Assembly (NCBI RefSeq): GCF_001563265.1
Contig: NZ_CP005088.1
Coordinates: 1-64,000, forward strand
Length of the DNA stretch: 64,000 nt
Source: Sphingobium sp. TKS
GTDB taxonomy: Bacteria; Pseudomonadota; Alphaproteobacteria; Sphingomonadales; Sphingomonadaceae
Direction of reading: 5' to 3'
Shown here one piece after another: positions 7,642-57,378 of the stretch (positions within the stretch are counted from its first letter, which is position 1; every line of letters starts with the position of its first letter). A program made the position numbers and the translations under genes. A model generated the notes under the pieces. It was not told the DNA's origin. It worked only from the letters and a program-made list of their open reading frames with translations, and did no database searches.

Positions 7642-7650
7642 TGTTCGCCA

Positions 7651-8870: not shown

Positions 8871-8981
8871 TTGTCCTGACACCGGAGTGAAGTGGGCAGG
8901 AGACACGGATAGTTTTTCAACGCGACCGAAGAAAAAATGTTTAAGAGCGCGAAACGATACTTCGGTCATATCTAGGGAGGG

Positions 8982-11522
8982 ATGGTTATGATTGTCAGAC
9001 CAGAAAGCACAACGAAACGGCACGGCATTAACTTATACGCATCGGGCGTCGCGCTTCTTTGCTTCTGTTCGCCCGCATTCGCCCAGAGCGAGGCTCCGGC
9101 GGAGCAGCCTGCTGCCCAATCCGCAGCCGCCGAAGCGCCGCAGAGTGAAAGTCTGGGTGCCGGCGAGATCATCGTCACCGCCAGCAAGCGCGCTGAATCG
9201 ATCAACAAGGTCGGCCTCACGATTGCGGCGGTCAGTGGCGATCAGCTCGTCAAGCAGGGTATCAGCAGCGTCCAGGATTTGACCAAGGCCGTCCCGGGTC
9301 TGACCTATGCGCGGTCGGCATTCGGCACCCCGGTGTTCACGCTGCGTGGCGTCGGCTATTTCGATACCGCTCTGGCGGCATCGCCTGCGGTTAGCGTTTA
9401 TGTCGACCAGGCGCCTCTCAGCTTCTCCGCGCTGCCCGGCATCGGGGTCGGTTTGGACATGGAGCGTGTTGAGGTACTGAAAGGTCCGCAGGGCATTCTG
9501 TTCGGCCAGAATTCCACCGGCGGCGCGATCAACTACATCGCCAACAAGCCGACCGACACTCTGACGAGCGGGTTCAGCCTTGGCTATGGACGATTTAGCA
9601 CGGTTGAAGGCGAAGCTTTCATCAGTGGACCTGTGACCGACACGCTCAATATACGGCTCGCTGGCCGCAGCACTTATGCGGGATCGTGGCAGAAAAATTA
9701 CTTCTCTCGTCCAGGTGACGAGTTCGGGAAGCGGCGGGAATTCGCTGGCCGTATCACTCTAGACTGGAAGCCCACCGATAGACTCAGTTTCATGGCCAGC
9801 CTGAGTGGTTGGCATGACGGCAGCGAGCCGCAGATCGGGCAGTACATCTTCCTGCGTCCTGCCACGGCGGGGCAGGAGCAATTTTTGAGCCCTCAGCTTT
9901 ATAATTTCGAAACGGGTACATTGGTGACGCCATATGCGCCGCGCAAGGCGCGCGCCGCCGATTGGTCCGCGGATGCTGAACCTTTCCGTGACGACAGAAT
10001 GTATAATGCCGCGCTGCGTACCGACTATGACGTGACCGATAATCTGACCCTGACCTCGATCACTTCTTATTCGGACTATAAGCGTAATAGCCGGGCGGCG
10101 GATGACGGCACTGCGGTGCAAGACTATGATTATGTCGCCAACGACGGATATATTCGTGACTTCAACCAGGAATTGCGCCTGTCGAACGACGCCGCATCGC
10201 GCATGCGGGTCACCGTCGGTGCTAATTATCAGCACAGCAAAGTCTATGAGCTAAGCAAGCTTTCCGATGGAGATAGCATCATCTCGAATTTCTCTCAGAT
10301 AGACGGGACGAGCACTTTGCTGCCGGTGCCATTTTCCAGAGCATCGGATTTCAGCCGGCAGACGATCGAAAATTATGCGTTCTTTGGAAACGTCGATTTC
10401 GATGTGACAGACACCATCACGGTGAAGGGTGGCCTTCGCTATACGAACAGCAAGCGCCATTTCGTCGGCTGTACCTTTGATAATAATTTCGACCCGATAC
10501 ATGGCGACGACGCCCAGCGCAGGCTGTTCGACATTATCCACACGTTCGCCAGATCCCTGGTGGGCCTGGGAGCATCGACCCCCCTGCAGCCGGGTGACTG
10601 CACCAGTGCGATCGACCCGCTGACGGATGCCAACGGCAATCCACTTATCGGTGTAGAGAATGGGCAACGGCCGGATGCCTTTGAGAGCATCCTCGGCGAT
10701 ACCAACCTCAATGAGGATAATCTGTCCTGGAAGGTTGGCGTCGACTTCAAGCCGGTGGCTGGTTCGCTATTTTACGCGAACGTGACCAAGGGCTATAAGG
10801 CAGGCAGCTTCCCAACGATTACGGCGGCGTTTGTCAGTCAATATCGTCCGGTCGTTCAGGAATCGGTCATTGCCTACGAAGCGGGTTTCAAGCAGGAGCT
10901 GTTCGACCGCTCGGTGCTGCTCACCGGTGCTGGCTTCTACTATGACTACCGCAACAAGCAGCTGAGGGGCTTCTTCGATCAGCCGCCTTTCGGCATCGTG
11001 TTCGCACTCGACAACGTGCCTAAGTCCACCGTCAAGGGCGGTGAGCTGGCCATCGTATGGCGGCCGGTCGATGGCCTCAACCTCAGTGGCGCGGTGACCT
11101 ATGTCGACACGAAGATCAAAAAATACTCCGGTCTGAATTCCGACGGGGTATTTACTGACTTTGCCGGCGACCGGGTGCCATTCGCTCCGAAATGGAATGC
11201 GAGTGCAAACGCCGACTATACCGTTCCGCTTGGCGCCAGCCTGGCAGTGAATTTGGGTGCCAGCCTGACCTATAACAGCAGCACGCAGGCTGCGATCGGT
11301 CATGATGCGGTGACGAAGGCGGTAACCTACATCAAGCCGTTTACCACCGTTGATGCTCGCATTGCACTTCAGGATGCGGACAATGCATGGCAGGTCCAGT
11401 TCTGGGTGAAGAATCTGACCAACGAATATTACTGGAACAACGTAGCGTTCCTGTCCGATACGGCGGTTCGGTATGCGGCCATGCCACGCACCTACGGAGT
11501 AAAGACCAGCTTCCGTTTCTAA
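8982..11522 (+). CDS. TonB-dependent receptor
   Basis: Outer-membrane receptor of 846 residues. It has a signal peptide ending near SPAFAQ (residue 35), a TonB-box/plug start GEIIVTASKRAESINKVGLTIAAVSG and plug motifs VEVLKGPQGILFGQNSTGGAINY, followed by a long beta-barrel ending in the aromatic MPRTYGVKTSFRF. AGGGAGGG lies directly before the ATG at 8982; a second ATG two codons on is also possible. A strong hairpin follows the gene. It probably imports a catabolic substrate. Its neighbours (E1-beta, XdhC, SDRs, acyl-CoA dehydrogenase) suggest an organic acid or terpenoid, but the ligand is unknown. Confidence 0.9.
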   Translation: MVMIVRPESTTKRHGINLYASGVALLCFCSPAFAQSEAPAEQPAAQSAAAEAPQSESLGAGEIIVTASKRAESINKVGLTIAAVSGDQLVKQGISSVQDLTKAVPGLTYARSAFGTPVFTLRGVGYFDTALAASPAVSVYVDQAPLSFSALPGIGVGLDMERVEVLKGPQGILFGQNSTGGAINYIANKPTDTLTSGFSLGYGRFSTVEGEAFISGPVTDTLNIRLAGRSTYAGSWQKNYFSRPGDEFGKRREFAGRITLDWKPTDRLSFMASLSGWHDGSEPQIGQYIFLRPATAGQEQFLSPQLYNFETGTLVTPYAPRKARAADWSADAEPFRDDRMYNAALRTDYDVTDNLTLTSITSYSDYKRNSRAADDGTAVQDYDYVANDGYIRDFNQELRLSNDAASRMRVTVGANYQHSKVYELSKLSDGDSIISNFSQIDGTSTLLPVPFSRASDFSRQTIENYAFFGNVDFDVTDTITVKGGLRYTNSKRHFVGCTFDNNFDPIHGDDAQRRLFDIIHTFARSLVGLGASTPLQPGDCTSAIDPLTDANGNPLIGVENGQRPDAFESILGDTNLNEDNLSWKVGVDFKPVAGSLFYANVTKGYKAGSFPTITAAFVSQYRPVVQESVIAYEAGFKQELFDRSVLLTGAGFYYDYRNKQLRGFFDQPPFGIVFALDNVPKSTVKGGELAIVWRPVDGLNLSGAVTYVDTKIKKYSGLNSDGVFTDFAGDRVPFAPKWNASANADYTVPLGASLAVNLGASLTYNSSTQAAIGHDAVTKAVTYIKPFTTVDARIALQDADNAWQVQFWVKNLTNEYYWNNVAFLSDTAVRYAAMPRTYGVKTSFRF

Positions 11523-11614
11523 AGCTGATCGGAGGATCTTGGGTTGGTCTGTCGAGATTGGCCTGGGATCTCCCCTCCTCTGCCGGCATGAAGCCGGTGG
11601 TGCATTGAATGGAT

Positions 11615-11652
11615 ACGGCCGGAGCATCCGATTTTTCGGACGCTCCGGCCGT
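11615..11652 (+). terminator. Terminator after the TonB receptor
   Basis: ACGGCCGGAGC pairs with GCTCCGGCCGT, and the stem continues through TCCG/CGGA with one mismatch around an ATTTTT loop. This strong GC hairpin lies 92 bp after the receptor stop; the tail AATCCTTT is only moderately T-rich. Confidence 0.65.
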
Positions 11653-11692
11653 AATCCTTTAAGTTCAGCATTTTTTGGATCAGAATGGGATC

Positions 11693-12634
11693 ATGGCTGA
11701 GGCAGCGGATGACCTGGATGTCGTGATAGATGCCGCGGCGCTATGGCTTGCGGCGGGCCGTCATGTCGCGCTTGCCACAGTGATCGAGACCTGGGGGTCG
11801 GCGCCTCGGCGGGCGGGATCCCATCTGGTGATCCGCGACGACGGAATTTTCGAAGGCTCCGTCAGCGGCGGTTGTGTCGAAGGCGACGTCATCGTTCAGG
11901 CTCTCGAATTGATTGCGGCAGGGGGCGGCTTTCGTCGCCTGGATTATGGCGTGGCTGACGCGCAGGCCTGGGAGGTGGGACTTGCTTGCGGCGGCCGAAT
12001 CTCCATCCTGTTACAGACCGTCGATGGGGCACATTTTCCGCCTGCGCTGATCGAGCGTATCGTTGATGCACGGGCGCAGGGTTTGCCGCTGGGTCTGGCG
12101 ACGGATCTGACAAGCGGTGCGACCCGCGAGAATGCGGCCCCTCTGAAGGAATGGTTCTTCAATCTCTATCCTCCGCGCCGTCGTCTCGCGATCGTGGGGG
12201 CGGTTCATATCGCCCAGCTGCTCGTCCCGATGGCGCGCCTTGCGGGCTATGAGACAACCGTTATCGATCCGCGCGGCATGTTCGCGGCGGCTGCCCGATT
12301 TGATCAACCTGTAGACGAGAATTGGCCCGACGAAGCGCTTGATCGTTGGCGCCCGGACGGCGGCTCCGCGGTAGTCAGTTTGACGCATGATCCAAAGCTT
12401 GATGATCCGGCGCTGGCGCGCGCTCTGAACTCGCCGGCCTTCTATATCGGCGCATTGGGATCACGAAAAACACATGCTGCCCGGCTCGAGCGGCTCGGCG
12501 CCGCCGGCTTCACGGATAAGGAGCTCGCCCGCATCCATGGGCCGGCAGGGCTCCCAATCGGTGCGGCGGGACCAGCCGAGATCGCCGTTTCCATCCTGGC
12601 CGAGATGACGACAGTCTTGCGGAGCTCGAAGTGA
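11693..12634 (+). CDS. XdhC/CoxI-family maturation protein
   Basis: XdhC-type protein of 313 residues, involved in loading or sulfurating the molybdenum cofactor of molybdenum hydroxylases. The N-terminal XdhC/CoxI domain shows WGSAPRRAGSHLVI and GSVSGGCVEGDV; the C-terminal Rossmann domain shows LAIVGAVHIAQLL and AFYIGALGSRKTHAARLERL. The ATG at 11693 is preferred; the in-frame codon 18 bp upstream would be TTG. The MoeA-like gene follows with a GTGA overlap. No molybdenum hydroxylase is found in the window. Confidence 0.8.
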   Translation: MAEAADDLDVVIDAAALWLAAGRHVALATVIETWGSAPRRAGSHLVIRDDGIFEGSVSGGCVEGDVIVQALELIAAGGGFRRLDYGVADAQAWEVGLACGGRISILLQTVDGAHFPPALIERIVDARAQGLPLGLATDLTSGATRENAAPLKEWFFNLYPPRRRLAIVGAVHIAQLLVPMARLAGYETTVIDPRGMFAAAARFDQPVDENWPDEALDRWRPDGGSAVVSLTHDPKLDDPALARALNSPAFYIGALGSRKTHAARLERLGAAGFTDKELARIHGPAGLPIGAAGPAEIAVSILAEMTTVLRSSK

Positions 12635-13623
12635 GGTTTGGACGGGTATCGCTGGAAGAGGCCGAGGGTGCGATCCTGGCCCATAGCCTCTCGATTCCGG
12701 GACGCCGCTTGCCAAAAGGGCGCGTGCTCGATTGCGATGATCTGGCGGCGGTCCGGCATGCGGGATTGGAAGCGCTCACCGTTGCTCGGCTCGATACGGA
12801 CGATATTGGTGAAAATGATGTCGCGATGGCGATTGCGCAGAGGCTGGCCGGAGATCATGTCCGCGCCGAACCTCCCGTCCATGGGCGGGCTGATCTGATC
12901 GCCGAGACGAACGGCCTTCTCGTTTATGCACCCGACGGCATAGGCAAGCTCAATCGGGCAACGGAGGCGATCACATTCGCCGCCGTCGCGCCGATGACGC
13001 CGGTGCGCGCGGGCGACGTGGTAGGCACCGTCAAGATAATTCCCTATGCGGTGCCCCGAGCCGAACTTGTCTCAGCGGGGCAAGTCGCGGATGGTTGCAA
13101 GGTCCGTATAGCTGCATTCGGGCCCCTCTCGGTCAATCTCGTGCAAACCAGTCTAGGCAGCGTAAGCCTCAAGCTTCTCGCCAAGACCGAAACCGTTATA
13201 AGGCAGCGAGTCGAGAGGCTTGGCGGACATTTGAATCATGTGTGGATCTGCGATCATGATGAAGCGGCTCTAACCAATTTGCTCGCGGACTCTTCGGAGG
13301 CGGATCTTGTGCTGATCATGGCGGCATCGGCGACGGCCGACCGCGAAGATGTGGTCCCCGCGGCCATTCGACAAGCGGGCGGGCGCGTGGAGCGGGTGGG
13401 AATGCCGGTCGATCCCGGCAATCTCCTGTGCCTCGGTTGGTTGCGCAGGCGGGCTGTCATTGGGTTGCCGGGTTGTGCACGTAGCCCCCTGCGTAATGGA
13501 GTTGATCTGATATTGGAGCGGCTCTTCGCTGGGTTCGGCGTGGATAGCGATGTGATCGCCGGCATGGGAGTCGGCGGTCTGCTCGGGGATGGAGGCGGAC
13601 GACTCGATGCGCGCGCCCTCTAG
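12631..13623 (+). CDS. MoeA-like molybdopterin-binding protein
   Basis: Protein of 330 residues with a GTG start overlapping the xdhC-like stop. The molybdopterin-binding (MoCF) domain is seen around residues 165-300, with ADLVLIMAASATADREDVVPAAIR, VDPGNLLCLG and VIGLPGCARSPL. In related clusters this protein is often fused to a MobA-like nucleotidyltransferase and sits beside xdhC; here the fusion part is absent and the end LGDGGGRLDARAL looks like linker. It probably acts in cofactor delivery to a molybdenum hydroxylase encoded elsewhere. Confidence 0.75.
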   Translation: MRFGRVSLEEAEGAILAHSLSIPGRRLPKGRVLDCDDLAAVRHAGLEALTVARLDTDDIGENDVAMAIAQRLAGDHVRAEPPVHGRADLIAETNGLLVYAPDGIGKLNRATEAITFAAVAPMTPVRAGDVVGTVKIIPYAVPRAELVSAGQVADGCKVRIAAFGPLSVNLVQTSLGSVSLKLLAKTETVIRQRVERLGGHLNHVWICDHDEAALTNLLADSSEADLVLIMAASATADREDVVPAAIRQAGGRVERVGMPVDPGNLLCLGWLRRRAVIGLPGCARSPLRNGVDLILERLFAGFGVDSDVIAGMGVGGLLGDGGGRLDARAL

Positions 13624-13661
13624 CTGTAGAAAAACAACACTTACTTGGTTGGGATTATTGG

Positions 13662-15008
13662 ATGTTGACCTACGACTATGATCTGTTCGTCATTGGGGCG
13701 GGCTCGGGCGGAGTGCGCGCGGCGCGGGTTTCGGCAGCCTATGGCGCGCGGGTGGCGGTCGCCGAGGAGCATCGGGTGGGCGGCACCTGCGTGATCCGGG
13801 GCTGCGTGCCCAAGAAGCTGCTCGTCTATGGCTCGCATTTCGCCGAGGATCTGCAGGATGCACGGCGCTTTGGCTGGAAGGTGCCCGATTGCGAATTTGA
13901 CTGGTCGGCGCTGCGCGACAATGTGCTCGCCGAGGTCTCGCGGCTCGAAGGTCTCTACACCGAGACGCTCGGCAACAATAAGGTCGAGATCATCCGCGAG
14001 CGGGCGACCGTCGCCGGGCCGCATGAGGTGCTGCTCGGCTCGGGCCAGACGATCACCGCCGGCAAAATCCTGATCGCAACCGGCGCTTGGCCGATCGTAC
14101 CCCATTTTCCGGGGGCCGAGCATGGCATCACCTCGAATGAAGTGTTCCATCTCGATACCTTCCCCAAGCGCGTGGTGATCGCAGGGGCGGGCTATATCGC
14201 CAATGAATTTGCCGGCATCTTCCACCAGTTTGGTGCGCATGTGACGCTGGTCAACCGCACCGACGTGATCCTGCGCGGCTATGACGAGCAGATCCGCGAC
14301 CGGCTGCTCCAGATCTCGATGACCAAGGGGATCGAGTTCAAATTCCACGTCGCCTTCGAGAAGGTCGACAAGCAACCGGACGGCTCGCTGCTGGTGCACA
14401 TGACCGGCCATGAGCCGATCCCGGCCGACATGCTGCTATTCGCCACCGGCCGACGCCCGCATACCGAAAATCTCGGGCTGGAGACGGCCGACGTCGCACT
14501 CGACGCCAAGGGCGCGATCAAGGTGGACGACGACAACCGCTCGAGCTGCGCCAGCATCTATGCGGTGGGCGACGTCACCAACCGGGTGCAGCTGACGCCG
14601 GTCGCGATCCGCGAGGGCCAGGCCTTTGCCGACACTGTGTTCGGCAATAATCCCCGCCGGGTCGATTATGGCTGCATCCCGTCCGCCGTATTCAGCCATC
14701 CGCCGATGGCGGGCGTGGGCATGACCGAGGCCGAGGCGCGCAACAAGCTCGGTGAGGTCAAGGTCTACACCTCCGACTTCCGGGCGATGAAGAATGTGCT
14801 CGCCGACCGCCACGAGCGCGCGCTCTACAAGCTGGTCGTCCATCCTGAGACCGACGTGGTGGTCGGCATCCACATGATCGGCCCCGACGCGCCTGAAATC
14901 CTGCAGGCCGCCGCGATCGCGGTGAAGGCGAGGCTCACCAAGGCCCAGTTCGACGATACCGTAGCACTGCATCCCTCTATGGCCGAGGAACTGGTGCTGA
15001 TGCGGTAG
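13662..15008 (+). CDS. gor: Glutathione-disulfide reductase
   Basis: FAD-dependent pyridine nucleotide disulfide oxidoreductase of 448 residues. The FAD motif GAGSGG is at residues 12-17, and the redox-active pair C43/C48 lies in GGTCVIRGCVPKK. An NADPH-binding fold begins at VVIAGAGYIANEFAG, and the dimerisation-domain HPSMAEE near the C terminus supplies the catalytic histidine. The RGCVPKK context separates glutathione reductase from lipoamide dehydrogenase. It would keep glutathione reduced in the cytosol, which can matter for glutathione-dependent catabolic steps such as LinD, although linD is not in the window. Confidence 0.88.
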   Translation: MLTYDYDLFVIGAGSGGVRAARVSAAYGARVAVAEEHRVGGTCVIRGCVPKKLLVYGSHFAEDLQDARRFGWKVPDCEFDWSALRDNVLAEVSRLEGLYTETLGNNKVEIIRERATVAGPHEVLLGSGQTITAGKILIATGAWPIVPHFPGAEHGITSNEVFHLDTFPKRVVIAGAGYIANEFAGIFHQFGAHVTLVNRTDVILRGYDEQIRDRLLQISMTKGIEFKFHVAFEKVDKQPDGSLLVHMTGHEPIPADMLLFATGRRPHTENLGLETADVALDAKGAIKVDDDNRSSCASIYAVGDVTNRVQLTPVAIREGQAFADTVFGNNPRRVDYGCIPSAVFSHPPMAGVGMTEAEARNKLGEVKVYTSDFRAMKNVLADRHERALYKLVVHPETDVVVGIHMIGPDAPEILQAAAIAVKARLTKAQFDDTVALHPSMAEELVLMR

Positions 15009-15142
15009 GGCTTGGGTTGCCAGCTACCGACGTATGCGCCTGGGCGCTGCGTCGGTCATGCGCTTGGCCTGCCGTTCGCCTGAACGCGACCGGCAGGCCG
15101 TTAGCTGGTCATTGCGACCGAATAACAGGGTCGGCAATTCAA

Positions 15143-16381
15143 CTATTGACGATAGCGGCGCATTTCGAGGCGAGCGATCGCGCGGTTGTGAACCTCATCC
15201 GGCCCATCCACCAGGCGCATTGTGCGGAGATGTGCATAGGCGCGCGCAAGGCCGAAGTCGTCGGCGACGCCCGCGCCGCCATGCGCCTGGATCGCATCGT
15301 CGGCGATCTTCAACGCCATATGCGGCCCCGCCACCTTGATCATCGCGATTTCCGCTTGTGCTGCCTTGGCCCCAAGCTTGTCCATCACGTCGGCGGCCTT
15401 GAGGCATAGGAGGCGGGTCATTTCAAGTGACGTCCGTGCTTCGGCGATCCGCTGCTCCCAGATGGAATGCTCTGCTAGGCGTTTCCCAAAGGCAGTGCGC
15501 GAAAGGAGCCGCTCCACCATTTTCTTCAAGATTTCCTCGGCCAAGCCAATCGTGCGCATACAGTGATGGATTCGGCCTGGCCCCAATCGCCCCTGAGCAA
15601 TTTCAAAGCCGCGCCCCTCGCCGAGCAGCATATTCTCGACCGGAACGCGAACATCCTTCAGCTCGACTTCGCCATGACCATGAGGCGCATCGTCATAGCC
15701 AAACACAGGAAGCATTCGCAGAACCTTAACCCCCGGCGTGTCGAGCGGCAGGAGGATCATGCTCTGCTGAGCATGGCGCGGGGCATCAGGATCGGTCTTT
15801 CCCATGAGAATGCCGACCGAGCATCGAGGATCGCCTATGCCCGAAGACCACCATTTGCGGCCGTTGATCACATAATGGTCGCCGTCACAAACGATGGAGG
15901 TTTCGATATTGGTGGCGTCAGAGGATGCGACTCGCGGCTCGGTCATCAGAAAGACCGAGCGAATCTTCCCCTCCATCAGCGGCCGGAGCCAGCGCTCCTT
16001 ATGCTCGCGAGTTCCATAGCGGTGCAGGACCTCCATGTTGCCGGTATCGGGCGCGGAGCAGTTGAACACCTCGGACGCCCATTCGATGCGGCCCATCTCT
16101 TCCGCGCAGGAGGCATATTCCAGATTGGTAAGGCCCGGAGCGACGAACTCGAAGCTGCTGTCGACGGGATTGTGGCCGGCCAGCGGCGGCATGAAAAGAT
16201 TCCATATGCCGTCCGCTTTCGCGCGCTCCTTCAATTCCTCGATTATCGGCAGAGTCTTCCACCGCTCTCCACTAGCCTGCTGCGCGGCATAGGTCTCATC
16301 ATGGGGCCGAACCACATCGTTCATGAAATTACGGACCCGATCACGCCACATGGTTTCCGCGGGCGACATCGTGAAATTCAT
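15143..16381 (-). CDS. Acyl-CoA dehydrogenase
   Basis: Flavoenzyme of 412 residues. The N-terminal helical domain is followed by [19 protein letters not shown] (FAD/substrate loop), [11 protein letters not shown], and the C-terminal helical domain with [20 protein letters not shown] and [12 protein letters not shown]. It oxidises an acyl-CoA to the enoyl-CoA. It is divergent from SDR1 across a 367-bp region holding two ACCA-N2-TGGT palindromes, suggesting co-regulation. The substrate is unknown; the length and the WSSGIGDP signature fit the FadE-like group common in sphingomonads. Confidence 0.88.
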
Positions 16382-16414
16382 ATTGCAGTCCTTATCTGGC
16401 CCATGGGCATGATG

Positions 16415-16424
16415 ACCACATGGT
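16415..16424. promoter_or_regulatory. ACCA-N2-TGGT operator-like site 1
   Basis: ACCACATGGT followed by AAT, 34 bp upstream of the acyl-CoA dehydrogenase start. It is one of four related sites. Confidence 0.5.
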
Positions 16425-16627
16425 AATTATCATTAACCCCTGCATGATCCAAGCGATTCGATAAAAGGAGGGCATGCGCCATCTGCGTAGGCTTTTTCAC
16501 TTCGAGTCGGAGATTGCAGGCCGCGAACGCTGTAAAGGAAGCCATTGTAGAACATAGAGTATGAACCAGCGCCTTTCGCCCCGGCTGGACAAGAGGGCAT
16601 TTCGTCCTCTCGCAAAGCAGGCTTGTA

Positions 16628-16637
16628 ACCATGTGGT
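16628..16637. promoter_or_regulatory. ACCA-N2-TGGT operator-like site 2
   Basis: ACCATGTGGT followed by AAG, about 110 bp upstream of the SDR start at 16749. Confidence 0.5.
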
Positions 16638-16748
16638 AAGTATGCTCTGATCTTTCAGGCTGGTGCCAGGCACATGGGGCCACTGGCGATGTGGTCAAGG
16701 CTGAAGCGAAGTCAATTCGCGCAGTTGAGCATTTTCGGAGGATGAAGA

Positions 16749-17501
16749 ATGGCTAACAGACTCGCAGGCAAGGTTGCGCTCATCACGGGTGGAGCGAGCG
16801 GGCTCGGCGCCGCTCAGGCGAAGCGTTTCGCGGAAGAAGGCGCCAAGGTCGTAATCGGCGACCTCAATGAAGAGATGGCCAAGGGCGTCGTAGCCGAAAT
16901 CAGGGCTGCTGGTGGCGATGCGCTCTTCATTCGGTTGGATGTTACCGATGCGGCGAGCTGGAATAATGCGATTGCCGCTGCCGTCGAGGCTTTTGGCGGG
17001 CTTACGACTCTATCCAACACTGCCGGTATCATTCATCCTGGCGGCTTCGAGGAGGAGAGCATTGAAGGCTGGAACAAGATGGTGGCGGTCAATCAGACTG
17101 CTATCTTCCTCGGAATCAAGGCGGCAATCCCCGAGCTGGTGAAGTCGGGCAATGGCTCGATCATCAACATCAGTTCGTTGATCGGCATGTTTCCCACCGC
17201 CGGCAATGCCAGCTACTGTGCCACCAAAGCGGCCGTGCGCATCATGAGCAAGGCGGCGGCGCTGGAGTTTGTGGACCGCGGCGTTCGGGTGAATACGATC
17301 GTGCCCGGCGGAATGAACACGCCGATCACGGCGAATGTCCCCCCTGACGTGCTGAAGCAGCAGACAAGCCAGATCCCCATGGGAAAGCTCGGTGACCCGA
17401 TCGACATTGCCAACGGCGCGCTTTTTCTGGCCTCTGACGAGGCGAAATATATTACTGGCGTGGATCTGCCGATTGACGGAGGCTGGTCCGTGGGTGTTTG
17501 A
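16749..17501 (+). CDS. Short-chain dehydrogenase/reductase (SDR1)
   Basis: Classical SDR of 250 residues: nucleotide-binding TGGASGLG at 13-20, NTAG at 90-93 (Thr in place of the usual second Asn), a catalytic serine at 142/143 and Y156-x3-K160. It oxidises or reduces a hydroxyl/keto group with NAD(P); D38 in GDLN suggests NAD. GGAGGATGAAG precedes the start. It is paralogous to the damaged SDR downstream (similar along the whole length) and divergent from the acyl-CoA dehydrogenase gene. The substrate is unknown. Confidence 0.88.
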   Translation: MANRLAGKVALITGGASGLGAAQAKRFAEEGAKVVIGDLNEEMAKGVVAEIRAAGGDALFIRLDVTDAASWNNAIAAAVEAFGGLTTLSNTAGIIHPGGFEEESIEGWNKMVAVNQTAIFLGIKAAIPELVKSGNGSIINISSLIGMFPTAGNASYCATKAAVRIMSKAAALEFVDRGVRVNTIVPGGMNTPITANVPPDVLKQQTSQIPMGKLGDPIDIANGALFLASDEAKYITGVDLPIDGGWSVGV

Positions 17502-17545
17502 ACTCATTGATATTATTTGTGAAAACACAGCATTAGAAAGTGAAA

Positions 17546-17568
17546 GCGCGCGGCTGCGTGCCGCGCGC
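17546..17568 (+). terminator. GC-rich hairpin after SDR1
   Basis: GCGCGCGG pairs with CCGCGCGC around a 7-base loop, 45 bp after the SDR1 stop. There is no T-run, so this is a weak candidate terminator. Confidence 0.4.
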
Positions 17569-17649
17569 AAAGGGGCAGCATTAGCGGGCCAGGGGACTTG
17601 GACATTTAGTCTCACTTTTCGGTCCGGTTCCTCAGAATCCAGCTTGACT

Positions 17650-17659
17650 ACCAACTGGT
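17650..17659. promoter_or_regulatory. ACCA-N2-TGGT operator-like site 3
   Basis: ACCAACTGGT followed by AATT, about 113 bp upstream of the damaged SDR2. Confidence 0.5.
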
Positions 17660-17771
17660 AATTGTGCTTGGATCAAGGTCCGGTGATCGGCCCAGTTGTT
17701 GTGCATCGGAAAAAAGAACCCTCAGCGACGCGGGTCTGAATTGCGCGCTCAAGCTATTTAGGAGGCACAGG

Positions 17772-18522
17772 ATGAGCAACAGAATGGCAGGAAAGTCGCG
17801 CTCGTAACGGGCGCGGCGAGCGGCCTGGGTGCAGCGCAGGCTCGGCTTTTTGCCAAGGAGGGCGCCAAGGTCGTCGTCGCCGATCTGAATGTCGAAATGG
17901 GCAACAAGGTCGTGGCCGAGATTCAGGAAAGCGGGGGCGAGGCCCTATCGTGCGGCTGGATATCACCGATGCTGCGAGCTGGGCGGGGGCTGTCGAGGCG
18001 GCGGTTGGGGCCTTTGGGAAGCTCACGACGCTTTACAACACCGCGGGCATCATCCACGGCGCGATGATCCAGGACGAGACGCTCGAAGGCTGGAGCAAGA
18101 TGATCGCGGTCAACCAGACTGCGCTTTTCCTGGGCCTGAAGATGGTTGCGCCGGAAATTGCGAAGTCGGGAAATGGTGCGATCCTAAACATCAGTTCGCT
18201 CGTCAGCGTCATCTGTGAGCCTGGCTTGATCAGCTATGCGGCGACCAAGTCTGCGGTACGCGCGATGACCAAGGTGGCTGCGCTGGAATATGTCGGGCAA
18301 GGGGTGCGGGTGAACACCATCGTTCCTGGTGGCATGAAGACGCCGATGCAGGCGAACGTCACGCCCGAGCAGGTTGAATGGTACAAAGCGCAGATCCCGA
18401 TGGGCGATCTTGGCGAGCCGAACGATATCGCTTATGGGGCGCTATATCTTCTGTCAGACGAAGCTAAATATGTTACTGGAACGGAACTGTTCATCGATGG
18501 CGGCTGGTCTTCTGCGGCCTAA
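17772..18522 (+). pseudogene. SDR2, broken by two single-base deletions
   Basis: Aligned by eye with SDR1, the gene starts at ATG 17772 (MSNRMAGK) and should continue VALVTGAASGLGAAQA. One base is missing near 17793 (GGAAAGTC where AAGGTC is expected), giving an early stop at 17805. A second base is missing near 17945 (GCCCTATCG), after which the frame runs in register from VRLDITDAASW to the stop at 18522, including NTAG and the YAATK active site. Both changes are -1. It is either a real pseudogene or sequence error at short homopolymers. It lies directly upstream of linA. Confidence 0.75.
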
Positions 18523-18582
18523 ATCCTTGATGCCCTCGATCCTGCTAAGATTACGGGATTATATTCAACTAGGAGATACAAA

Positions 18583-19053
18583 ATGAGTGATCTAGACAGA
18601 CTTGCAAGCCGGGCCGCGATTCAGGACCTCTACTCTGACAAGCTCATTGCCGTAGACAAGCGCCAAGAGGGCCGTCTCGCTTCTATTTGGTGGGATGATG
18701 CAGAGTGGACCATTGAGGGAATCGGCACCTACAAGGGCCCGGAAGGCGCCCTCGATTTGGCCAATAACGTACTCTGGCCAATGTTTCACGAATGTATTCA
18801 TTATGGAACCAATCTGCGCTTGGAATTTGTGAGCGCGGACAAGGTAAATGGTATTGGCGACGTCCTTCTCCTTGGAAATCTCGTCGAAGGTAATCAGTCG
18901 ATTCTTATCGCTGCGGTCTTCACGGATGAGTATGAGCGCCGTGACGGGGTGTGGAAGTTCTCTAAGCGCAACGCATGCACGAACTATTTCACCCCGCTGG
19001 CCGGCATTCATTTCGCACCGCCCGGCATTCATTTCGCACCGTCCGGCGCATAA
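18583..19053 (+). CDS. linA: gamma-HCH dehydrochlorinase LinA
   Basis: Protein of 156 residues recognised as LinA, which removes HCl from gamma-hexachlorocyclohexane to pentachlorocyclohexene and then tetrachlorocyclohexadiene, the first steps of lindane degradation. The fold is SnoaL/scytalone-dehydratase-like. The catalytic dyad D25 and H73 is present, and K20, C71, L96, A131 and T133 match the variant with those residues (LinA2/UT26 type, from memory). AGGAGA lies before the ATG. The 3' end contains a perfect 20-bp direct repeat encoding GIHFAPP/GIHFAPS. Base composition is visibly less GC-rich than its neighbours, fitting recent acquisition. A terminator follows. Confidence 0.95.
   Translation: MSDLDRLASRAAIQDLYSDKLIAVDKRQEGRLASIWWDDAEWTIEGIGTYKGPEGALDLANNVLWPMFHECIHYGTNLRLEFVSADKVNGIGDVLLLGNLVEGNQSILIAAVFTDEYERRDGVWKFSKRNACTNYFTPLAGIHFAPPGIHFAPSGA
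19001..19041 (+). repeat. Direct repeat at the linA 3' end
   Basis: CCGGCATTCATTTCGCACCG occurs at 19001-19020 and 19022-19041, a 21-bp in-frame tandem unit encoding seven residues near the C terminus. Confidence 0.9.
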
Positions 19054-19075
19054 TCTTATATATACAAGTGATTAG

Positions 19076-19120
19076 TTGGGCATTCACATGACGCTTGTCG
19101 TGTGGATGCCCAATTTTATA
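19076..19120 (+). terminator. linA terminator
   Basis: TTGGGCATTCACA (19076-19088) pairs with TGTGGATGCCCAA (19101-19113) with one G-T-type mismatch, followed by TTTTATAT. It is a rho-independent terminator 22 bp after the linA stop. Confidence 0.8.
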
Positions 19121-19481
19121 TGGATGGAGAACTCAAACACAACGCGACTCGCGATTGGAGATGAGTCACGCCGGGGCACCTGGCGCCGAATGGTGGCCCC
19201 CCATTCAGCATTGCCGATCGGGCTTGCAATTTCGCCCGCCTGGTCCGTTAGAAGCATGAGCGCCGCCCATCGAAAGATGTTTCGGGATGGCCCCATTTGC
19301 CTTCTCGTGCTTGCCGATGCGGAGATCAGGCGCGGTTGACATGTGACCATTTGGTAATCTATCCTTTCCTTGTATCGAGGTGCGACGTGATCTCGCTTCG
19401 GTAAAAGAAGGGCGGAGCATTGACTTCGACGCAGGAGAGACGGTCGGCGGCTTTGGGTCGTTCGACCGGTGGAGGGCATTC
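19121..19481. other. Intergenic region, linA to FAD oxidoreductase
   Basis: About 360 bp with no recognised gene. It holds operator-like site 4 (19346-19355) and an in-frame GTG at 19380 that could extend the next gene by 34 codons. Confidence 0.4.
19346..19355. promoter_or_regulatory. ACCA-N2-TGGT operator-like site 4
   Basis: ACCATTTGGT followed by AATC, upstream of the FAD oxidoreductase gene. Confidence 0.5.
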
Positions 19482-20603
19482 TTGAAGCAATCGGCAGAGC
19501 GATCGCGGTTATCTCGCCGCGCTTTCATCCAGGCCGGCGGCGCGGGGCTGGCGGTTTCCACCCTGGGTGCTGCGGCATCTGCTCCGGCTGTTGCCGCGGT
19601 GGGCCGGCAGTGGACCCAAATCGCGGATATAGTCGTGGTCGGCAGCGGCGCGGCCGCCTCGGTTGCCGCACTTGCGGCTGCCAAGGACGGCGCGAAGGTC
19701 CTCATGCTGGAAAAAGCGCCGGTATATGGCGGTACGTCCGCGAAATCCGGTGGGGCTTTCTGGGTGCCCAATAATTTCAGGCTGAAGGAGCGGGGGATCG
19801 AGGATCCAAAGGCTTCGCTCCTGGCTTATTGCGCTGCCTATTCATATCCGCATCTTTTCGACAGCAATTCACCGACGCTCGGCCTGGGTGAGGATGTCTA
19901 CAAACTGCTTGAGGCGTTTTACGACAACGCGTCGCCGATGACGGACATGTTGCGGGAAATCAAGGCAGCCGAGATAGGCCGCTTTCATGTCCTTCCCGAC
20001 GGCCAGGGAACCGATCTGCCTGACTATGGCGTGCTCGACGGCAACAATAAGGTGCCTCGCGGACGGTGCCTCGGACCCATCAAGCCTGATGGGTCGCCAG
20101 GATTCGGCGCGGAGTTGATGCGCCAGATCAAGGCGCGCATCGACGCTTATGGCATTCCCCTGCTCACCAGCCACCAGGTTGTCCGCCTGGTTACCGACGG
20201 GGATGGCGCGGTGCTCGGCGTCGAGGCGCTGAACGACGGGAAGGAGGTTTCCTTTGGCGCGCGCAAAGGCGTGATCTTCGCAACGGGCGGGTTCACCTAT
20301 AATCGCGAAATGCTCAATCTCCATCAGACAGGGCCGGTCTATGGCGGTTGCGGGGTGCCGACCAATACTGGCGACTTTGTATCGATTGCCGGGGCTGTTG
20401 GAGCGAAGCTTGGCAATATGGGAAGCGCCTGGCGCGCCGAGATCGTGCTGGAAGAGGCGCTGGAATATGTAAGCGTGCCAAGCGACGTATGGATTCCGCC
20501 GGGCGACAGCATGTTCATTGTCAATCGCTATGGGAATCGTGTCTTCAACGAGAAGCGCAATTACCATGACCGTGCGCGCGTACATCAACATTATGATCCC
20601 AAC
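19482..20603 (+). pseudogene. Tat-exported FAD oxidoreductase, 3' truncated
   Basis: FAD_binding_2 (fumarate reductase/3-ketosteroid dehydrogenase-like) flavoprotein. A twin-arginine signal, SRRAFIQAGGAGLAV, is followed by the FAD motif VVVGSGAAASVAALAAAKDGA, GGTSAKSGGAFWVPNN and VIFATGGFTYN. The start at TTG 19482 is preferred because GGAGGG lies 5 bp before it and gives a normal Tat N-region; GTG 19380 in the same frame is the alternative. IS6100-B cuts the gene at 20603 and replaces the C terminus with GSVAKIGGSQR encoded by the IS end, so the substrate-domain end is lost. Confidence 0.8.
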
Positions 20604-21483
20604 GGCTCTGTTGCAAAGATTGGCGGCAGTCAGAGGTAGGCTGTCGCTCTGCGCCGATCAGGCGGCTGCTGCGAAATGGTGGTTGAGCATGCCCATGGCC
20701 TCCGTCAGCGCCGAGGGCCCAATGCCAAAAGCTCTCTCCACAAGGCGCACCTCGCCCCTGATGCCGGGCTGCAGGCACCAGGGGCGAGCCTGTCCTTTGC
20801 GCAGGGCTCGCATGACTTCGAATCCCTTGATCGTGGCATAGGCCGTGGGGATCGATTTGAAACCGCGCACCGGCTTGATCAGTATCTTGAGCTTTCCGTG
20901 ATCGGCCTCGATCACGTTATTGAGATACTTCACCTGCCGGTGGGCCGTCTCCCGGTCCAGCTTTCCTTCGCGCTTCAATTCGGTGATCGCTGCACCATAG
21001 CTCGGCGCTTTGTCGGTATTGAGCGTGGCAGGCTTTTCCCAGTGCTTCAGGCCTCGCAGGGCCTTGCCCAGGAACCGCTTCGCTGCCTTGGCGCTGCGGG
21101 TCGGCGACAGGTAGAAATCGATCGTGTCGCCCCGCTTGTCGACTGCCCGGTACAGGTAGGTCCACTTGCCCCGCACCTTGACGTAGGTTTCATCCAGGCG
21201 CCAGCTCGGATCAAAGCCACGCCGCCAGAACCAGCGCAGCCGCTTCTCCATCTCCGGGGCGTAGCACTGGACCCAGCGATAGATCGTCGTATGGTCGACC
21301 GAAATGCCGCGTTCCGCCAGCATTTCCTCAAGGTCGCGATAGCTGATCGGATAGCGACAATACCAGCGCACCGCCCACAGGATCACATCACCCTGGAAAT
21401 GGCGCCACTTGAAATCCGTCATCGTTCCGTCCGTCCAATCTCCGCCAAGCATGCTCAAGCTTCACGATTTTTGCAACAGAGCC
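20604..21483 (-). mobile_element. IS6100 copy B
   Basis: 880 bp with the usual 14-bp ends. The flanking 8-mers ATCCCAAC and ATTTCAGC differ. It truncates an FAD oxidoreductase on the left and a TonB receptor on the right, and is in the same orientation as copy C. Confidence 0.97.
20658..21452 (-). CDS. tnpA: IS6100 transposase (copy B)
   Basis: 264 residues, apparently identical to copy A. Confidence 0.95.
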   Translation of the reverse strand: MLGGDWTDGTMTDFKWRHFQGDVILWAVRWYCRYPISYRDLEEMLAERGISVDHTTIYRWVQCYAPEMEKRLRWFWRRGFDPSWRLDETYVKVRGKWTYLYRAVDKRGDTIDFYLSPTRSAKAAKRFLGKALRGLKHWEKPATLNTDKAPSYGAAITELKREGKLDRETAHRQVKYLNNVIEADHGKLKILIKPVRGFKSIPTAYATIKGFEVMRALRKGQARPWCLQPGIRGEVRLVERAFGIGPSALTEAMGMLNHHFAAAA

Positions 21484-21848
21484 ATTTCAGCGGCGCACGG
21501 CTGCCGTTTTCGCCCAAATGGCAATCGAGCCTGAGCGCGGACTACAGCCTGCCGCTGGGTGGCGTGAACCTAACCATGGGCACGACGATCTCCTCACAAA
21601 GCAAATCGCTGGGCGTTCTGGCCATCACCAACGCGGACAAGGATCTCTACGAGGTGAATGGCCGCACGCTCGTTTCCGCGCGGCTTGGCGTGGAAGCGCC
21701 TGATGGCCGCTGGGCGGTCTTCGGCTGGGGTCGCAATATCTTCAACAAGTATTACTGGACAAACACGATCCAGACTTACGATACCGTTGTTCGCTACGCT
21801 GGTCGACCCGCCGAATATGGCTTGACCGTGCGCTTCAAGTTCCAGTAA
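21484..21848 (+). pseudogene. TonB-dependent receptor, C-terminal fragment
   Basis: About 121 codons of the last beta-strands of an outer-membrane receptor: FSPKWQSSLSADYSLPLGG, VSARLGVEAPDGRWAVFGWGRNIFNKYYW and the terminal aromatic GRPAEYGLTVRFKFQ. The rest was removed at the IS6100-B junction. It resembles the ends of the two complete receptors in the window (8982 and 33913). The native linC neighbourhood probably included this receptor. Confidence 0.85.
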
Positions 21849-21887
21849 TGAAACCGGAACGCCGATAAGAAACTGTTGGAGGGATAG

Positions 21888-22640
21888 ATGTCTGATTTGA
21901 GCGGCAAGACGATAATCGTGACGGGTGGTGGCAGCGGCATCGGGCGCGCCACCGTGGAATTGCTGGTGGCCAGTGGTGCCAACGTCGCGGTGGCGGACAT
22001 CAACGACGAGGCCGGTGAGGCGGTCGTCGCTGCGTCTGGCGGGAAGGCCGCCTATTTCCGGTGCGACATCGCACAGGAAGAGGACGTGAAGGCACTTGTC
22101 GCGCAGACTCTGGCGGCGTTCGGCGGGCTTGACGGCGCGTTCAACAATGCGGCGATCCCGCAGGCCGGACTGCCGCTTGCCGAAGTGTCGCTCGAACGGT
22201 TTCGGCAGAGCATGGATATCAATGTAACCGGCACGTTCCTGTGCATGAAGTACCAGATCCTTGCGATGATCGAGCGCGGGACGAAGGGATCGATCGTCAA
22301 CACCGCATCCGTCGCTGGCGTGGTCGGCGTGCCGATGCACGGCGAATATGTCGGCGCGAAGCATGCGGTGGTCGGGCTGACCCGCGTGGCGGCGGCAGAC
22401 TATGGCAAGCACGGCATTCGCGTGAACGCGCTTGTGCCCGGCGCGGTGCGCACGCCTATGCTGCAGCGCGCGATGGACAATGATGCGGGCCTTGAGCCCT
22501 ATCTGAACTCGATCCACCCGATCGGCCGTTTCAGCGAACCGCACGAGCAGGCCCAGGCCGCCGTATGGTTGCTGTCCGACGCGGCTTCGTTCGTCACCGG
22601 CTCCTGCCTTGCAGCAGACGGCGGCTTTACCGCGATCTGA
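21888..22640 (+). CDS. linC: 2,5-DDOL dehydrogenase LinC
   Basis: SDR of 250 residues recognised as LinC, which oxidises 2,5-dichloro-2,5-cyclohexadiene-1,4-diol to 2,5-dichlorohydroquinone with NAD, the step after LinB in gamma-HCH breakdown. TGGGSGIG is at 12-19, NNAA at 86-89, S141, Y154 and K158 form the active site, and D37 in the cofactor loop favours NAD. GGAGGGAT precedes the ATG. The EthD-like gene follows 21 bp on, probably in one operon. The block sits between IS6100 copies B and C, both on the minus strand. Confidence 0.93.
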   Translation: MSDLSGKTIIVTGGGSGIGRATVELLVASGANVAVADINDEAGEAVVAASGGKAAYFRCDIAQEEDVKALVAQTLAAFGGLDGAFNNAAIPQAGLPLAEVSLERFRQSMDINVTGTFLCMKYQILAMIERGTKGSIVNTASVAGVVGVPMHGEYVGAKHAVVGLTRVAAADYGKHGIRVNALVPGAVRTPMLQRAMDNDAGLEPYLNSIHPIGRFSEPHEQAQAAVWLLSDAASFVTGSCLAADGGFTAI

Positions 22641-22661
22641 TCATTTTACGGAGCAGCCTCC

Positions 22662-23348
22662 ATGCACAGCATCAAGATACTCGCGACGATCCCGCGCCGG
22701 AAGGACATTTCGGAACAGCAGTTCCACGATCACTGGCGCCATCCGCACGGCACACTCAGCAAGAAGATCGCGTGCCTGCGCGGCTATGTGCAATCGCACC
22801 GGATCGTCTCTCCGCTGCTGCCTGATACACAGCTGGCCTACGACGGCATTACCGAGCTGTGGTATGACAGTCTCGACGATGCGCTCAACATGGGCAAAGA
22901 TCCCGCGCATCGCAAATACAACATCCCCGACGAACCGCTGTTCGTCGACATGGACGGACTGAAGTTCACCTTCTTCGAGGAGGACATTATCCGCTCGCGA
23001 CCGGCGGTGGACGATCCCGATGATGCGGCCGTGCAGTGGTCGCCCACCGAATGGTCGGTAAGCGTCAAGATCCTGCAACTGGTCAAGGCGGATGGCAATC
23101 CGGCCTGGGCAGGCGATCAGGACAAGGCGCTGGGCGATCGCATCGGCGCGTTTCGGCATGTCCGCTCGTTCGCGATAGACGCGGTGCACAAGGGCACCTC
23201 GCCGTTCATCGGCGCGCGCGAACTGTGGTGGCCGACGCTATCCGATTTCGAACGCGGCGTGGCGGGTGATCGCGCGGCGTTCGATGCGCTCCTGGCACAG
23301 GCCGGCCAGCATTACACGATGCTGGCATCGGCCGAGCGGGTGATCTGA
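22662..23348 (+). CDS. EthD-domain protein
   Basis: Protein of 228 residues of the EthD/dimeric alpha-beta barrel family, possibly a tandem of two such domains (residues 1-110 with HSIKILATIPRRKDISEQQFHDHWRHPHG, and 130-225). Family members are small accessory or ring-handling proteins in catabolic operons; no specific reaction can be assigned. It follows linC closely and overlaps the next ORF by one base (TGATG). Confidence 0.75.
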   Translation: MHSIKILATIPRRKDISEQQFHDHWRHPHGTLSKKIACLRGYVQSHRIVSPLLPDTQLAYDGITELWYDSLDDALNMGKDPAHRKYNIPDEPLFVDMDGLKFTFFEEDIIRSRPAVDDPDDAAVQWSPTEWSVSVKILQLVKADGNPAWAGDQDKALGDRIGAFRHVRSFAIDAVHKGTSPFIGARELWWPTLSDFERGVAGDRAAFDALLAQAGQHYTMLASAERVI

Positions 23349-23710
23349 TGCCGGCCCCCGCGCTCGACGAGGAGCCCGTGCTGCCCCCCGGCTTCGAGGA
23401 TCTTCTCGAATTCGTGCCGCACTGGATCGGCGAGACGGCGCAGGAACGATGGGATATCCGGGCGCGCGCGACTATGGCGGAGATAACCCGCTTCTACGAT
23501 GTGCTGCTCTCCCGTTCGGAAGCCATCCTCGACCATGTCGAGACCTTTCCGCTCGACGCGATGCCGGCGCCGACGCTGCGCCTGTTCAGGCTACAGCTGG
23601 CGCTGGCTCACGCGGCGATGTCCGTAGAATTGCACAAGCAGCCGCGCGCGCACAATTCGCCCTATCCGCACCAGGTCCGCATCCTGCGGACGGCAGAGCC
23701 AACGCTGTAA
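23348..23710 (+). CDS. Hypothetical protein downstream of linC-ethD
   Basis: Acidic helical protein of 120 residues with no family recognised (LPPGFEDLLEFVPHWIG, RARATMAEITRFYDVLLSR). The one-base overlap with the EthD gene and good codon structure support translation. It is probably an accessory gene of the same catabolic operon. Confidence 0.55.
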   Translation: MPAPALDEEPVLPPGFEDLLEFVPHWIGETAQERWDIRARATMAEITRFYDVLLSRSEAILDHVETFPLDAMPAPTLRLFRLQLALAHAAMSVELHKQPRAHNSPYPHQVRILRTAEPTL

Positions 23711-23723
23711 AGGAGTTCGTCGC

Positions 23724-23753
23724 ATGAACGAGATGACCGAGCTTGCCAGCATC
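23724..23753 (+). pseudogene. First ten codons of a gene cut by IS6100-C
   Basis: AAAGGAG lies 8 bp before an ATG at 23724, and MNEMTELASI is encoded before IS6100-C begins. The spacing and signal say this was the next gene of the linC operon; its identity is lost. Confidence 0.5.
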
Positions 23754-24633
23754 GGCTCTGTTGCAAAGATTGGCGGCAGTCAGAGGTAGGCTGTCGCTCT
23801 GCGCCGATCAGGCGGCTGCTGCGAAATGGTGGTTGAGCATGCCCATGGCCTCCGTCAGCGCCGAGGGCCCAATGCCAAAAGCTCTCTCCACAAGGCGCAC
23901 CTCGCCCCTGATGCCGGGCTGCAGGCACCAGGGGCGAGCCTGTCCTTTGCGCAGGGCTCGCATGACTTCGAATCCCTTGATCGTGGCATAGGCCGTGGGG
24001 ATCGATTTGAAACCGCGCACCGGCTTGATCAGTATCTTGAGCTTTCCGTGATCGGCCTCGATCACGTTATTGAGATACTTCACCTGCCGGTGGGCCGTCT
24101 CCCGGTCCAGCTTTCCTTCGCGCTTCAATTCGGTGATCGCTGCACCATAGCTCGGCGCTTTGTCGGTATTGAGCGTGGCAGGCTTTTCCCAGTGCTTCAG
24201 GCCTCGCAGGGCCTTGCCCAGGAACCGCTTCGCTGCCTTGGCGCTGCGGGTCGGCGACAGGTAGAAATCGATCGTGTCGCCCCGCTTGTCGACTGCCCGG
24301 TACAGGTAGGTCCACTTGCCCCGCACCTTGACGTAGGTTTCATCCAGGCGCCAGCTCGGATCAAAGCCACGCCGCCAGAACCAGCGCAGCCGCTTCTCCA
24401 TCTCCGGGGCGTAGCACTGGACCCAGCGATAGATCGTCGTATGGTCGACCGAAATGCCGCGTTCCGCCAGCATTTCCTCAAGGTCGCGATAGCTGATCGG
24501 ATAGCGACAATACCAGCGCACCGCCCACAGGATCACATCACCCTGGAAATGGCGCCACTTGAAATCCGTCATCGTTCCGTCCGTCCAATCTCCGCCAAGC
24601 ATGCTCAAGCTTCACGATTTTTGCAACAGAGCC
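23754..24633 (-). mobile_element. IS6100 copy C
   Basis: 880 bp. The flanking 8-mers CCAGCATC and CGCTACTC differ. It truncates the linC operon on one side and an efflux gene on the other. Confidence 0.97.
23808..24602 (-). CDS. tnpA: IS6100 transposase (copy C)
   Basis: 264 residues, apparently identical to copy A. Confidence 0.95.
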   Translation of the reverse strand: MLGGDWTDGTMTDFKWRHFQGDVILWAVRWYCRYPISYRDLEEMLAERGISVDHTTIYRWVQCYAPEMEKRLRWFWRRGFDPSWRLDETYVKVRGKWTYLYRAVDKRGDTIDFYLSPTRSAKAAKRFLGKALRGLKHWEKPATLNTDKAPSYGAAITELKREGKLDRETAHRQVKYLNNVIEADHGKLKILIKPVRGFKSIPTAYATIKGFEVMRALRKGQARPWCLQPGIRGEVRLVERAFGIGPSALTEAMGMLNHHFAAAA

Positions 24634-43559: not shown

Positions 43560-43588
43560 GACGATACGAAACTTACCTTTCTTAGCGC

Positions 43589-43618
43589 AGGTCGGCAACG
43601 ACCTATAAGCGCGCACTC
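43589..43618. other. oriT: Predicted oriT (hairpin plus nic-like site)
   Basis: A perfect inverted repeat, AGGTCG-GCAA-CGACCT (43589-43604), is followed immediately by ATAAGCGCGCACTC. That resembles the nic region of RSF1010/Ti-type origins, in which TAAG-n-GCGC-n-CT follows a hairpin. It lies between the divergent traA and traC genes, where Ti-type plasmids keep oriT. This is a prediction from pattern and context. Confidence 0.65.
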
Positions 43619-49460: not shown

Positions 49461-49478
49461 AAGATTGAACATGGCGAT

Positions 49479-54626: not shown

Positions 54627-54660
54627 GAGACGGGAAAAACCCCTTCCCCCGGACCCCCAT

Positions 54661-57374: not shown

Positions 57375-57378
57375 ACCC

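Follow-up and report, generated by a model that had tools for sequence, protein, structure and literature searches.

The window analysed here is a stretch of 64,000 nucleotides, positions 1-64000 of plasmid pTK4 (contig C6, 75,938 bp) of Sphingobium sp. TKS. It contains linA (18583..19053), encoding a gamma-HCH dehydrochlorinase of the UT26/LinA2 type (156 aa), and linC (21888..22640), encoding a 2,5-DDOL dehydrogenase of the SDR type (250 aa), both on the plus strand. In the gamma-HCH pathway, LinA carries out step 1, the dehydrochlorination of gamma-HCH; its product is hydrolysed by LinB, encoded elsewhere in the same cell, and the diol is oxidised by LinC at step 3. A sequence-only reading of the window had the gene names and the step numbers, one and three, right. 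The activities of LinA and LinC from pTK4 are predicted from this known pathway, and we infer them for the present copies.

The TKS genome comprises 6,228,879 bp in 11 contigs, including C5 (pTK3, 87,635 bp) and C8 (pTK6, 34,300 bp). It was published as two chromosomes and nine plasmids summing to 6,228,879 bp (Tabata et al. 2016, PMC4824264). The 75,938-bp pTK4 of that report (CP005088) is the same plasmid as the contig of the window, with no difference, and linA and linC were placed on it; linB and linC were located on chromosome 1 and pTK3, linDER on pTK6, and linFb, a distant linF homologue, on chromosome 1. The presence of linA and linC on pTK4 and the location of linB and linDER are already published for TKS and are not new.

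Genes of the linA region and the linC cassette

All six residues named by the sequence-only reading (K20, D25, H73, L96, A131 and T133) were present in ORF 18583-19053; we take D25 and H73 to be the catalytic pair. Over its full length the protein had no differences from the LinA of pMI2 and of S. quisquiliarum P25. It differed from LinA of pISP1 at 3 positions, and from the LinA1-type protein of B90A pSRL1 by 11 substitutions and in the C-terminus. Three of the four PDB matches were LinA (3a76 at 357.5 bits) and the fourth, the non-LinA protein 3ef8, scored 22.7 bits. LinC, located 2.8 kb beyond linA as had been claimed, was identical to the annotated LinC of pSRL1 and pMI1, differed at 1 position from that of pISP4 and matched its best solved SDR at 201 bits. 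None of the NCBIfam models matched LinA, and the sole match of LinC above cut-off among the best 25 of 231 was a generic 'glucose 1-dehydrogenase' SDR subfamily, as would be seen if the two proteins were non-Lin SnoaL-like and SDR enzymes. That possibility is negligible and was rejected at the sequence level: LinA was identical to annotated LinA, the solved LinA outscored the only non-LinA structure by 357.5 to 22.7 bits, LinC was identical to annotated LinC, and neither protein was closer to a non-Lin SnoaL or SDR family. Both assignments, predicted from sequence, rest on near-identity to annotated proteins.

A survey of species genomes with LinA yielded 6 loci from 33 stretches. Half of them were linA (P25, RL-3 and LE124) and the other 3 were remote relatives (28-44%). 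The linC cassette had no match beside linA of P25, RL-3 or LE124 within the retrieved DNA, in which the P25 contig ends inside or at the IS.

The downstream half of the linA region occupies 7642..20603, and window 7642-21483 was contiguous with pMI2 at 99.75%. With the names of the pMI2 annotation, its genes are those for E1-beta, a lipoyl protein, a TonB receptor, an XdhC-like protein, a molybdopterin-binding protein, gorA, an acyl-CoA dehydrogenase, linX, linA and an FAD oxidoreductase. The last of these, an FAD-dependent oxidoreductase gene (19380..20639, plus strand), is cut at its 3' end by IS6100 and its frame continues into the IS; the junction ATCCCAAC/IS6100 is the same in pMI2, pISP1, P25 and RL-3. 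The linX gene (16749..17501, plus strand) encodes a LinC-like dehydrogenase, and its DNA was identical to linX of pSRL1, pMI2 and pISP1, which RefSeq annotates as 2,5-DDOL dehydrogenase. The sequence-only reading made no mention of linX, whose product may also oxidise the diol at step 3. In the available part of PMC4478539, linX is a linC-like sequence that is dispensable for HCH degradation.

An SDR gene between linX and linA (17784..18522, plus strand) is frameshifted relative to pMI2 and pSRL1 and open only from 17950, as two 1-bp length differences inside the gene were found by alignment. It is intact in pMI2 and pSRL1, 1 bp shorter in pTK4, pISP1, P25 and RL-3, and one further base has been lost in pTK4. 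pMI2 and pSRL1 have two copies of a 20-bp unit just upstream of this gene, against a single copy in pTK4, pISP1, P25 and RL-3.

The linC cassette (21484..23753, plus strand; 2,270 bp) is composed of the 3' remnant of a TonB-receptor gene, linC, an EthD-domain gene and a hypothetical gene. Exact copies of the whole 2,270 bp were present in pTK3, TKS chromosome 1, pMI1 and pSRL1, and not in pISP4. The cassette is flanked by directly repeated IS6100 copies 2 and 3, both on the plus strand, so that a pseudo-compound transposon arrangement, with cargo between direct IS copies, exists for linC and not for linA alone. The 8-bp direct repeats of an IS6-family pseudo-compound transposon were not found outside this pair, as the outer flanks ATCCCAAC and CGCTACTC differ; such repeats can vanish around IS6-family pairs through intramolecular events, according to an excerpt of PMC7986276.

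The IS junction in the TonB gene on the linC side varied in position. Taking the pTK4 junction as 0 and negative values as further from linC, it lies at -78 in pTK3, at -993 in pSRL1 and pMI1 and at +177 in pISP4; in TKS chromosome 1 it lies at about -733, next to an IS6100 remnant. The IS to the left of linC in pSRL1, pMI1, pTK3 and pISP4 has, relative to linC, the orientation opposite to copy 2 of pTK4.

Plasmid backbone, replicons and mobility

pTK4 is a pUT1-type backbone with a 26-kb Tn3-type insert bearing a second (Rep3) replicon and with an IS6100-bounded lin block. S. indicum UT26 pUT1 (NC_014005.1) matched pTK4 at 99.99-100% in five stretches (1-6765, 24632-25185, 25186-32409, 37279-48941 and 75141-75938); unlike pTK4, its annotation has neither lin genes nor a second replicon. 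The lin block (6762-24633) stands in place of pUT1 6762-10304.

The claim of a two-replicon plasmid was supported by Pfam domains. An RPA-type replication initiator gene (1..1104, plus strand; PF10134) marks the start of the pUT1-type backbone, with window 1-6761 identical to pUT1. The second replicon encodes a Rep3-type initiator (56463..57374, plus strand; PF01051/PF21205), and window 56095-58411 was 100% identical to pISP4 in two pieces. The Tn3-type insert carrying this replicon measures 26.2 kb (contig 48942-75142, of which 48942..64000 lie in the window). Its 5-bp duplication ATAAA occurs on both sides in pTK4 and once in pUT1, and its terminal repeats are related (GGGGTGACT.CACGAAAGT). 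From 49416 to 75142, pTK4 equals pTK3 27221-1495, that is 25,727 bp letter for letter. The insert common to both plasmids also contains a DnaE-like polymerase candidate (60581-63847, named by eye) and a Y-family polymerase gene (contig 64697-66298), which are error-prone-polymerase-like.

The sequence-only reading had described the plasmid as conjugative, and this held in part. As a self-transmissible plasmid would require, both a MobA/MobL (TraA-type) relaxase with helicase (40434..43616, minus strand) and a type IV coupling protein of the TraG/VirD4 type with a T4SS-DNA_transf domain (46516..48177, plus strand) were detected on pTK4 by Pfam domain search. No match to the VirB4/VirB10-type mating-pair formation families PF03135 and PF03743, the two families searched genome-wide, was present on pTK4; elsewhere in TKS, PF03135 had 6 matches (C1, C3, C4 and C7) and PF03743 had 12 (C1, C2, C3, C4 and C7). 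Self-conjugation as an established property of pTK4 was rejected on this ground. In its gene content pTK4 resembles a mobilizable plasmid more than a self-conjugative one, but its relative pUT1 is listed in PLSDB as conjugative, MPF_T, which speaks against 'mobilizable'.

IS6100 copies and their junctions

Six full 880-bp copies of IS6100, 100% identical, bound the blocks of the window as had been claimed. The element, a member of the IS6/IS26 family, has the expected length of 880 bp and the 14-bp terminal repeats GGCTCTGTTGCAAA. Terminal repeats of IS6100 occur 32 times in forward and 30 times in reverse orientation in the TKS genome, and the 880-bp copies compared within TKS were 100% identical. 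IS6-family elements produce 8-bp repeats, cointegrates and intramolecular deletions, as the available text of PMC7986276 describes.

Copy 1 (6762..7641, minus strand) has the pUT1 sequence GCGCAAGG as left flank and TGTTCGCC of the linA region, shared with pTK3, as right flank. Copy 2 (20604..21483, plus strand) connects the linA region, at ATCCCAAC, with the TonB remnant in the linC cassette; its left flank and orientation are those of the linA-side IS of pMI2, pISP1, P25 and RL-3, and its right flank ATTTCAGC lies in the TonB-receptor gene upstream of linC. Copy 3 (23754..24633, plus strand) has the left flank of the copy at pTK3 C5:76693 and the right flank of that at C5:79935, beyond which pUT1 10305 follows. 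Both flanks of copy 6 (58412..59291, minus strand) were identical to those at pTK3 C5:17346, inside the shared 25.7-kb stretch. Copies 4 (32697..33576, minus strand) and 5 (36402..37281, plus strand) are inverted, and a second TonB receptor gene (33913-36285) is located between them in place of pUT1 DNA.

Copies 1 and 2, the nearest pair around linA, are inverted, and simple recombination between them would therefore invert linA and not move it. The proposal that HCH catabolism is transferable in pieces thus applies to linC, with its direct IS6100 pair and its cassette repeated letter for letter on other replicons, and not to linA.

IS6100 copies paired by reciprocal 8-bp flanks, left-left or right-right, were observed on C1, the largest contig (229152, 479503 and 4083212), and C3 (41581, 401256 and 453442), a pattern expected from IS6100-driven inversions. 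At C7:48431-53106, other DNA of about 3.8 kb divides an IS6100 copy into two parts that overlap by 5 bp.

linB and linE in the TKS genome

The whole-genome search with LinB gave 6 matches. Two were full-length (C5:34952-35839 and C1:230419-231306) and four were weak matches on C1 and C2; none was on pTK4, so the statement that no linB is present extends from the window to the plasmid. The search with LinE gave one match (C8:18769-19731) and none on pTK4. The search proposed for linB, linDER and linR was run for linB and linE, and the locations of these two agree with the published TKS statement. On pTK3, a direct pair of IS6100 copies encloses the linB cassette (C5:33765-36827), and the 8-bp repeats GGTCGATC are intact on either side.

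A linA region divided between pTK3 and pTK4

The 8-bp sequence TGTTCGCC borders copy 1 of pTK4 on its right side and the IS6100 of pTK3 at C5:48377 on its left side; it is an IS6100 target duplication common to both plasmids. pTK3 43749-48376 corresponds to 4628 bp of the pMI2 stretch up to and including the TGTTCGCC site (99.94%). When the flanks from pTK3 and pTK4 were joined, they gave a continuous match to pMI2 of 1200/1200 bp (100%) and matched pSRL1 at 99.4%. The fact that TGTTCGCC is shared and that its flanks are continuous in pMI2 and pSRL1 indicates that one IS6100 event split the linA region onto two plasmids. The upstream half of the region is now on pTK3 with linB and linC, and the linA half is on pTK4. 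E1-alpha (pTK3 C5:47414-48376) and E1-beta (pTK4 7651-8634), of a 2-oxoacid-dehydrogenase-like operon, were parted by the IS6100 event; E1-alpha of pTK3 lacks its last codons and its frame runs into the IS, giving an IS-derived tail.

A second scar, GTTCGCTG, brackets a 24-kb part of pTK3. Most of this part matched R. wittichii DC-6 pDC08 (CP021189.1), in which the empty site for GTTCGCTG is intact and uninterrupted (978 bp at 100%). The pDC08-like DNA is part of the sister plasmid pTK3 and not of pTK4. Plasmid pDE4 had been tried as the empty site and was rejected, with no match for the joined flanks; pDC08 was found afterwards.

The 60 IS6100 ends of TKS yielded 7 reciprocal 8-bp pairs directly next to the IS, and one of these pairs links pTK3 with pTK4. 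The remaining pairs are two within C1, two within C3 and two within C5, one of the latter around linB. At six control offsets further out the numbers were 0, 0, 0, 1, 0 and 1, with about 0.03 expected by chance; the control offsets are thus not wholly empty, with 2 chance or shared-sequence pairs over the six.

Discussion

The genes and replicons of pTK4, the IS6100 junctions, the 8-bp scar pairs and the empty sites were read directly from the DNA. The layout of pTK4 is probably the result of IS6100 acting on a fused plasmid, and how many events there were, in what order and in which host, belongs to the reconstruction that follows. An IS6100 event at TGTTCGCC would have linked a pUT1-type plasmid, which already had IS6100 beside the linC cassette, to the linA region, and a pDC08-like plasmid would have been captured at GTTCGCTG, either before or after that joining. 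The fused order would have been pUT1 backbone - IS - linA region - ... - upstream half - IS - pDC08 - IS - TonB-linC - IS - 2.4 kb - IS - pUT1 backbone. In the line leading to pTK4, the IS6100 downstream of linA would then have targeted the TonB gene next to linC at ATTTCAGC. The resulting deletion would have taken away the upstream half of the linA region, together with any DNA attached to that half, and would have produced the order linA-IS6100-linC. Two direct IS6100 copies would finally have recombined and removed 2.4 kb downstream of linC; this loss is read from copy 3, whose flanks are those of C5:76693 on the left and of C5:79935 on the right. pTK3 would be a sister derivative in which linB and linC survived together with the upstream half of the linA region. 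Plasmid history has been traced from IS scars before, an established approach judging from the accessible sections of PMC5142620.

pTK4 likely lost the upstream half of the linA region through an IS6100 deletion. A reciprocal ATTTCAGC scar next to another IS copy had 0 matches in the TKS genome; a deletion would lose it, yet its absence leaves the step at ATTTCAGC unproven. pTK3 as the excised circle of this deletion was rejected, as the full TonB78-linC junction is kept on pTK3. The pUT1-type DNA beside the linC cassette of pTK3 stops after about 1.2 kb and another plasmid type follows, and pTK3 therefore needs further unseen events.

We tentatively propose, at a little less than an even chance, that pTK3 and pTK4 are both remnants of a single fused plasmid with linA, linC and probably linB, and that linB was lost in the same IS6100 deletion that brought linA next to linC. 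The 25,727 bp common to the two plasmids letter for letter count for a fused plasmid; the presence of linB on the same molecule is what we infer. No fetched plasmid stretch carries linA, linB and linC together (pISP4, pUT1, pTA15-2, pDE4 and pDC08 were whole plasmids), and the MI1205 copies examined have linA on pMI2 and linB on pMI1. The absence of linB from pTK4 is not best read as piecemeal gain alone, because linB sits on the sister plasmid pTK3 with the torn-off upstream half of the linA region.

Piecemeal gain would mean that pTK3 and pTK4 gathered IS6100-flanked lin cassettes independently through IS6100 recombination and that one plasmid with linA and linC never existed. The identity of the linC cassette across pTK3, pTK4 and chromosome 1 shows that cassettes move on their own, the linB cassette of pTK3 has its own direct 8-bp repeats, and IS6100 copies that are 100% identical recombine easily; the same junctions can come from homologous recombination between them. 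We nevertheless consider this unlikely as the sole explanation, as it accounts neither for one 8-bp duplication divided between the two plasmids with flanks continuous in pMI2 and pSRL1, nor for their shared 25.7 kb. A mis-join at identical IS6100 copies, with the linA region perhaps bearing a simple IS6100 insertion on one plasmid, is quite improbable. The genome was derived from 454 and Illumina mate-pair reads (PMC4824264), and the identical, repeated 880-bp IS6100 copies and the 25.7 kb shared by pTK3 and pTK4 are places where such an assembly could mis-join them. Against this, the replicons were declared finished and circular with the use of GenoFinisher and AceFileViewer (PMC4824264). 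The 75.94-kb pTK4 was also completely reconstructed from old HCH factory soil in a capture study, according to the available part of PMC5351058, where it is displayed as read coverage of this same reference and is thus not fully independent.

The pairing of linA and linC is also known from S. indicum B90A, in which pSRL1 (NZ_CP013071.1) has linX, linA1, IS6100 and linC in the same order as pTK4 and shares the linC cassette letter for letter. In pSRL1, unlike in pTK4, the IS truncates the 3' end of linA, which is a linA1-type allele, and the FAD oxidoreductase gene that separates linA from the IS in pTK4 is lacking; the IS also has the opposite orientation, and the linC-side junction lies 993 bp further out in the TonB gene. 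The join thus differs at both ends between B90A and TKS, which indicates that the linA/linC pairing arose at least twice; a common event was rejected on the basis of IS orientation, linA end and linC-side junction. The linA1-linF-linC cluster of B90A is on record in the seen portion of PMC4478539, which also catalogues five insertion sites downstream of linA and proposes IS6100-driven clustering. The linA region of pTK4 recurs in pMI2 of Sphingobium sp. MI1205 and in pISP1 of Sphingomonas sp. MM-1, both of which also share its IS6100 junction ATCCCAAC downstream of linA. In contrast to pTK4, linC does not follow the linA region in the fetched stretches of either plasmid, and in pMI2 the upstream half is still attached.

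Among the titles listed on these plasmids or on IS6100 cointegrates and HCH, none was on a split scar between pTK3 and pTK4, and the consulted parts of the cited papers did not mention it; the main TKS genome paper (DNA Res 2016, 10.1093/dnares/dsw041) is outside that scope. The split-scar record is an addition of the present analysis, though that paper may already print it.

Lindane is an insecticide, and its breakdown is a model of a pathway for a man-made compound assembled within decades. What is added here is a readable record of IS6100 scars, in which a single transposition event has left one of its ends on each of two plasmids in the same cell, and linA-IS6100-linC was formed at least twice through different joins. 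Such junctions let one ask whether scattered lin genes are arriving or dispersing. If pTK3 and pTK4 do descend from one fused plasmid, the split pathway in TKS would owe as much to the breaking apart of an assembled pathway as to stepwise gain, and the same tear would have put E1-alpha and E1-beta on two plasmids.
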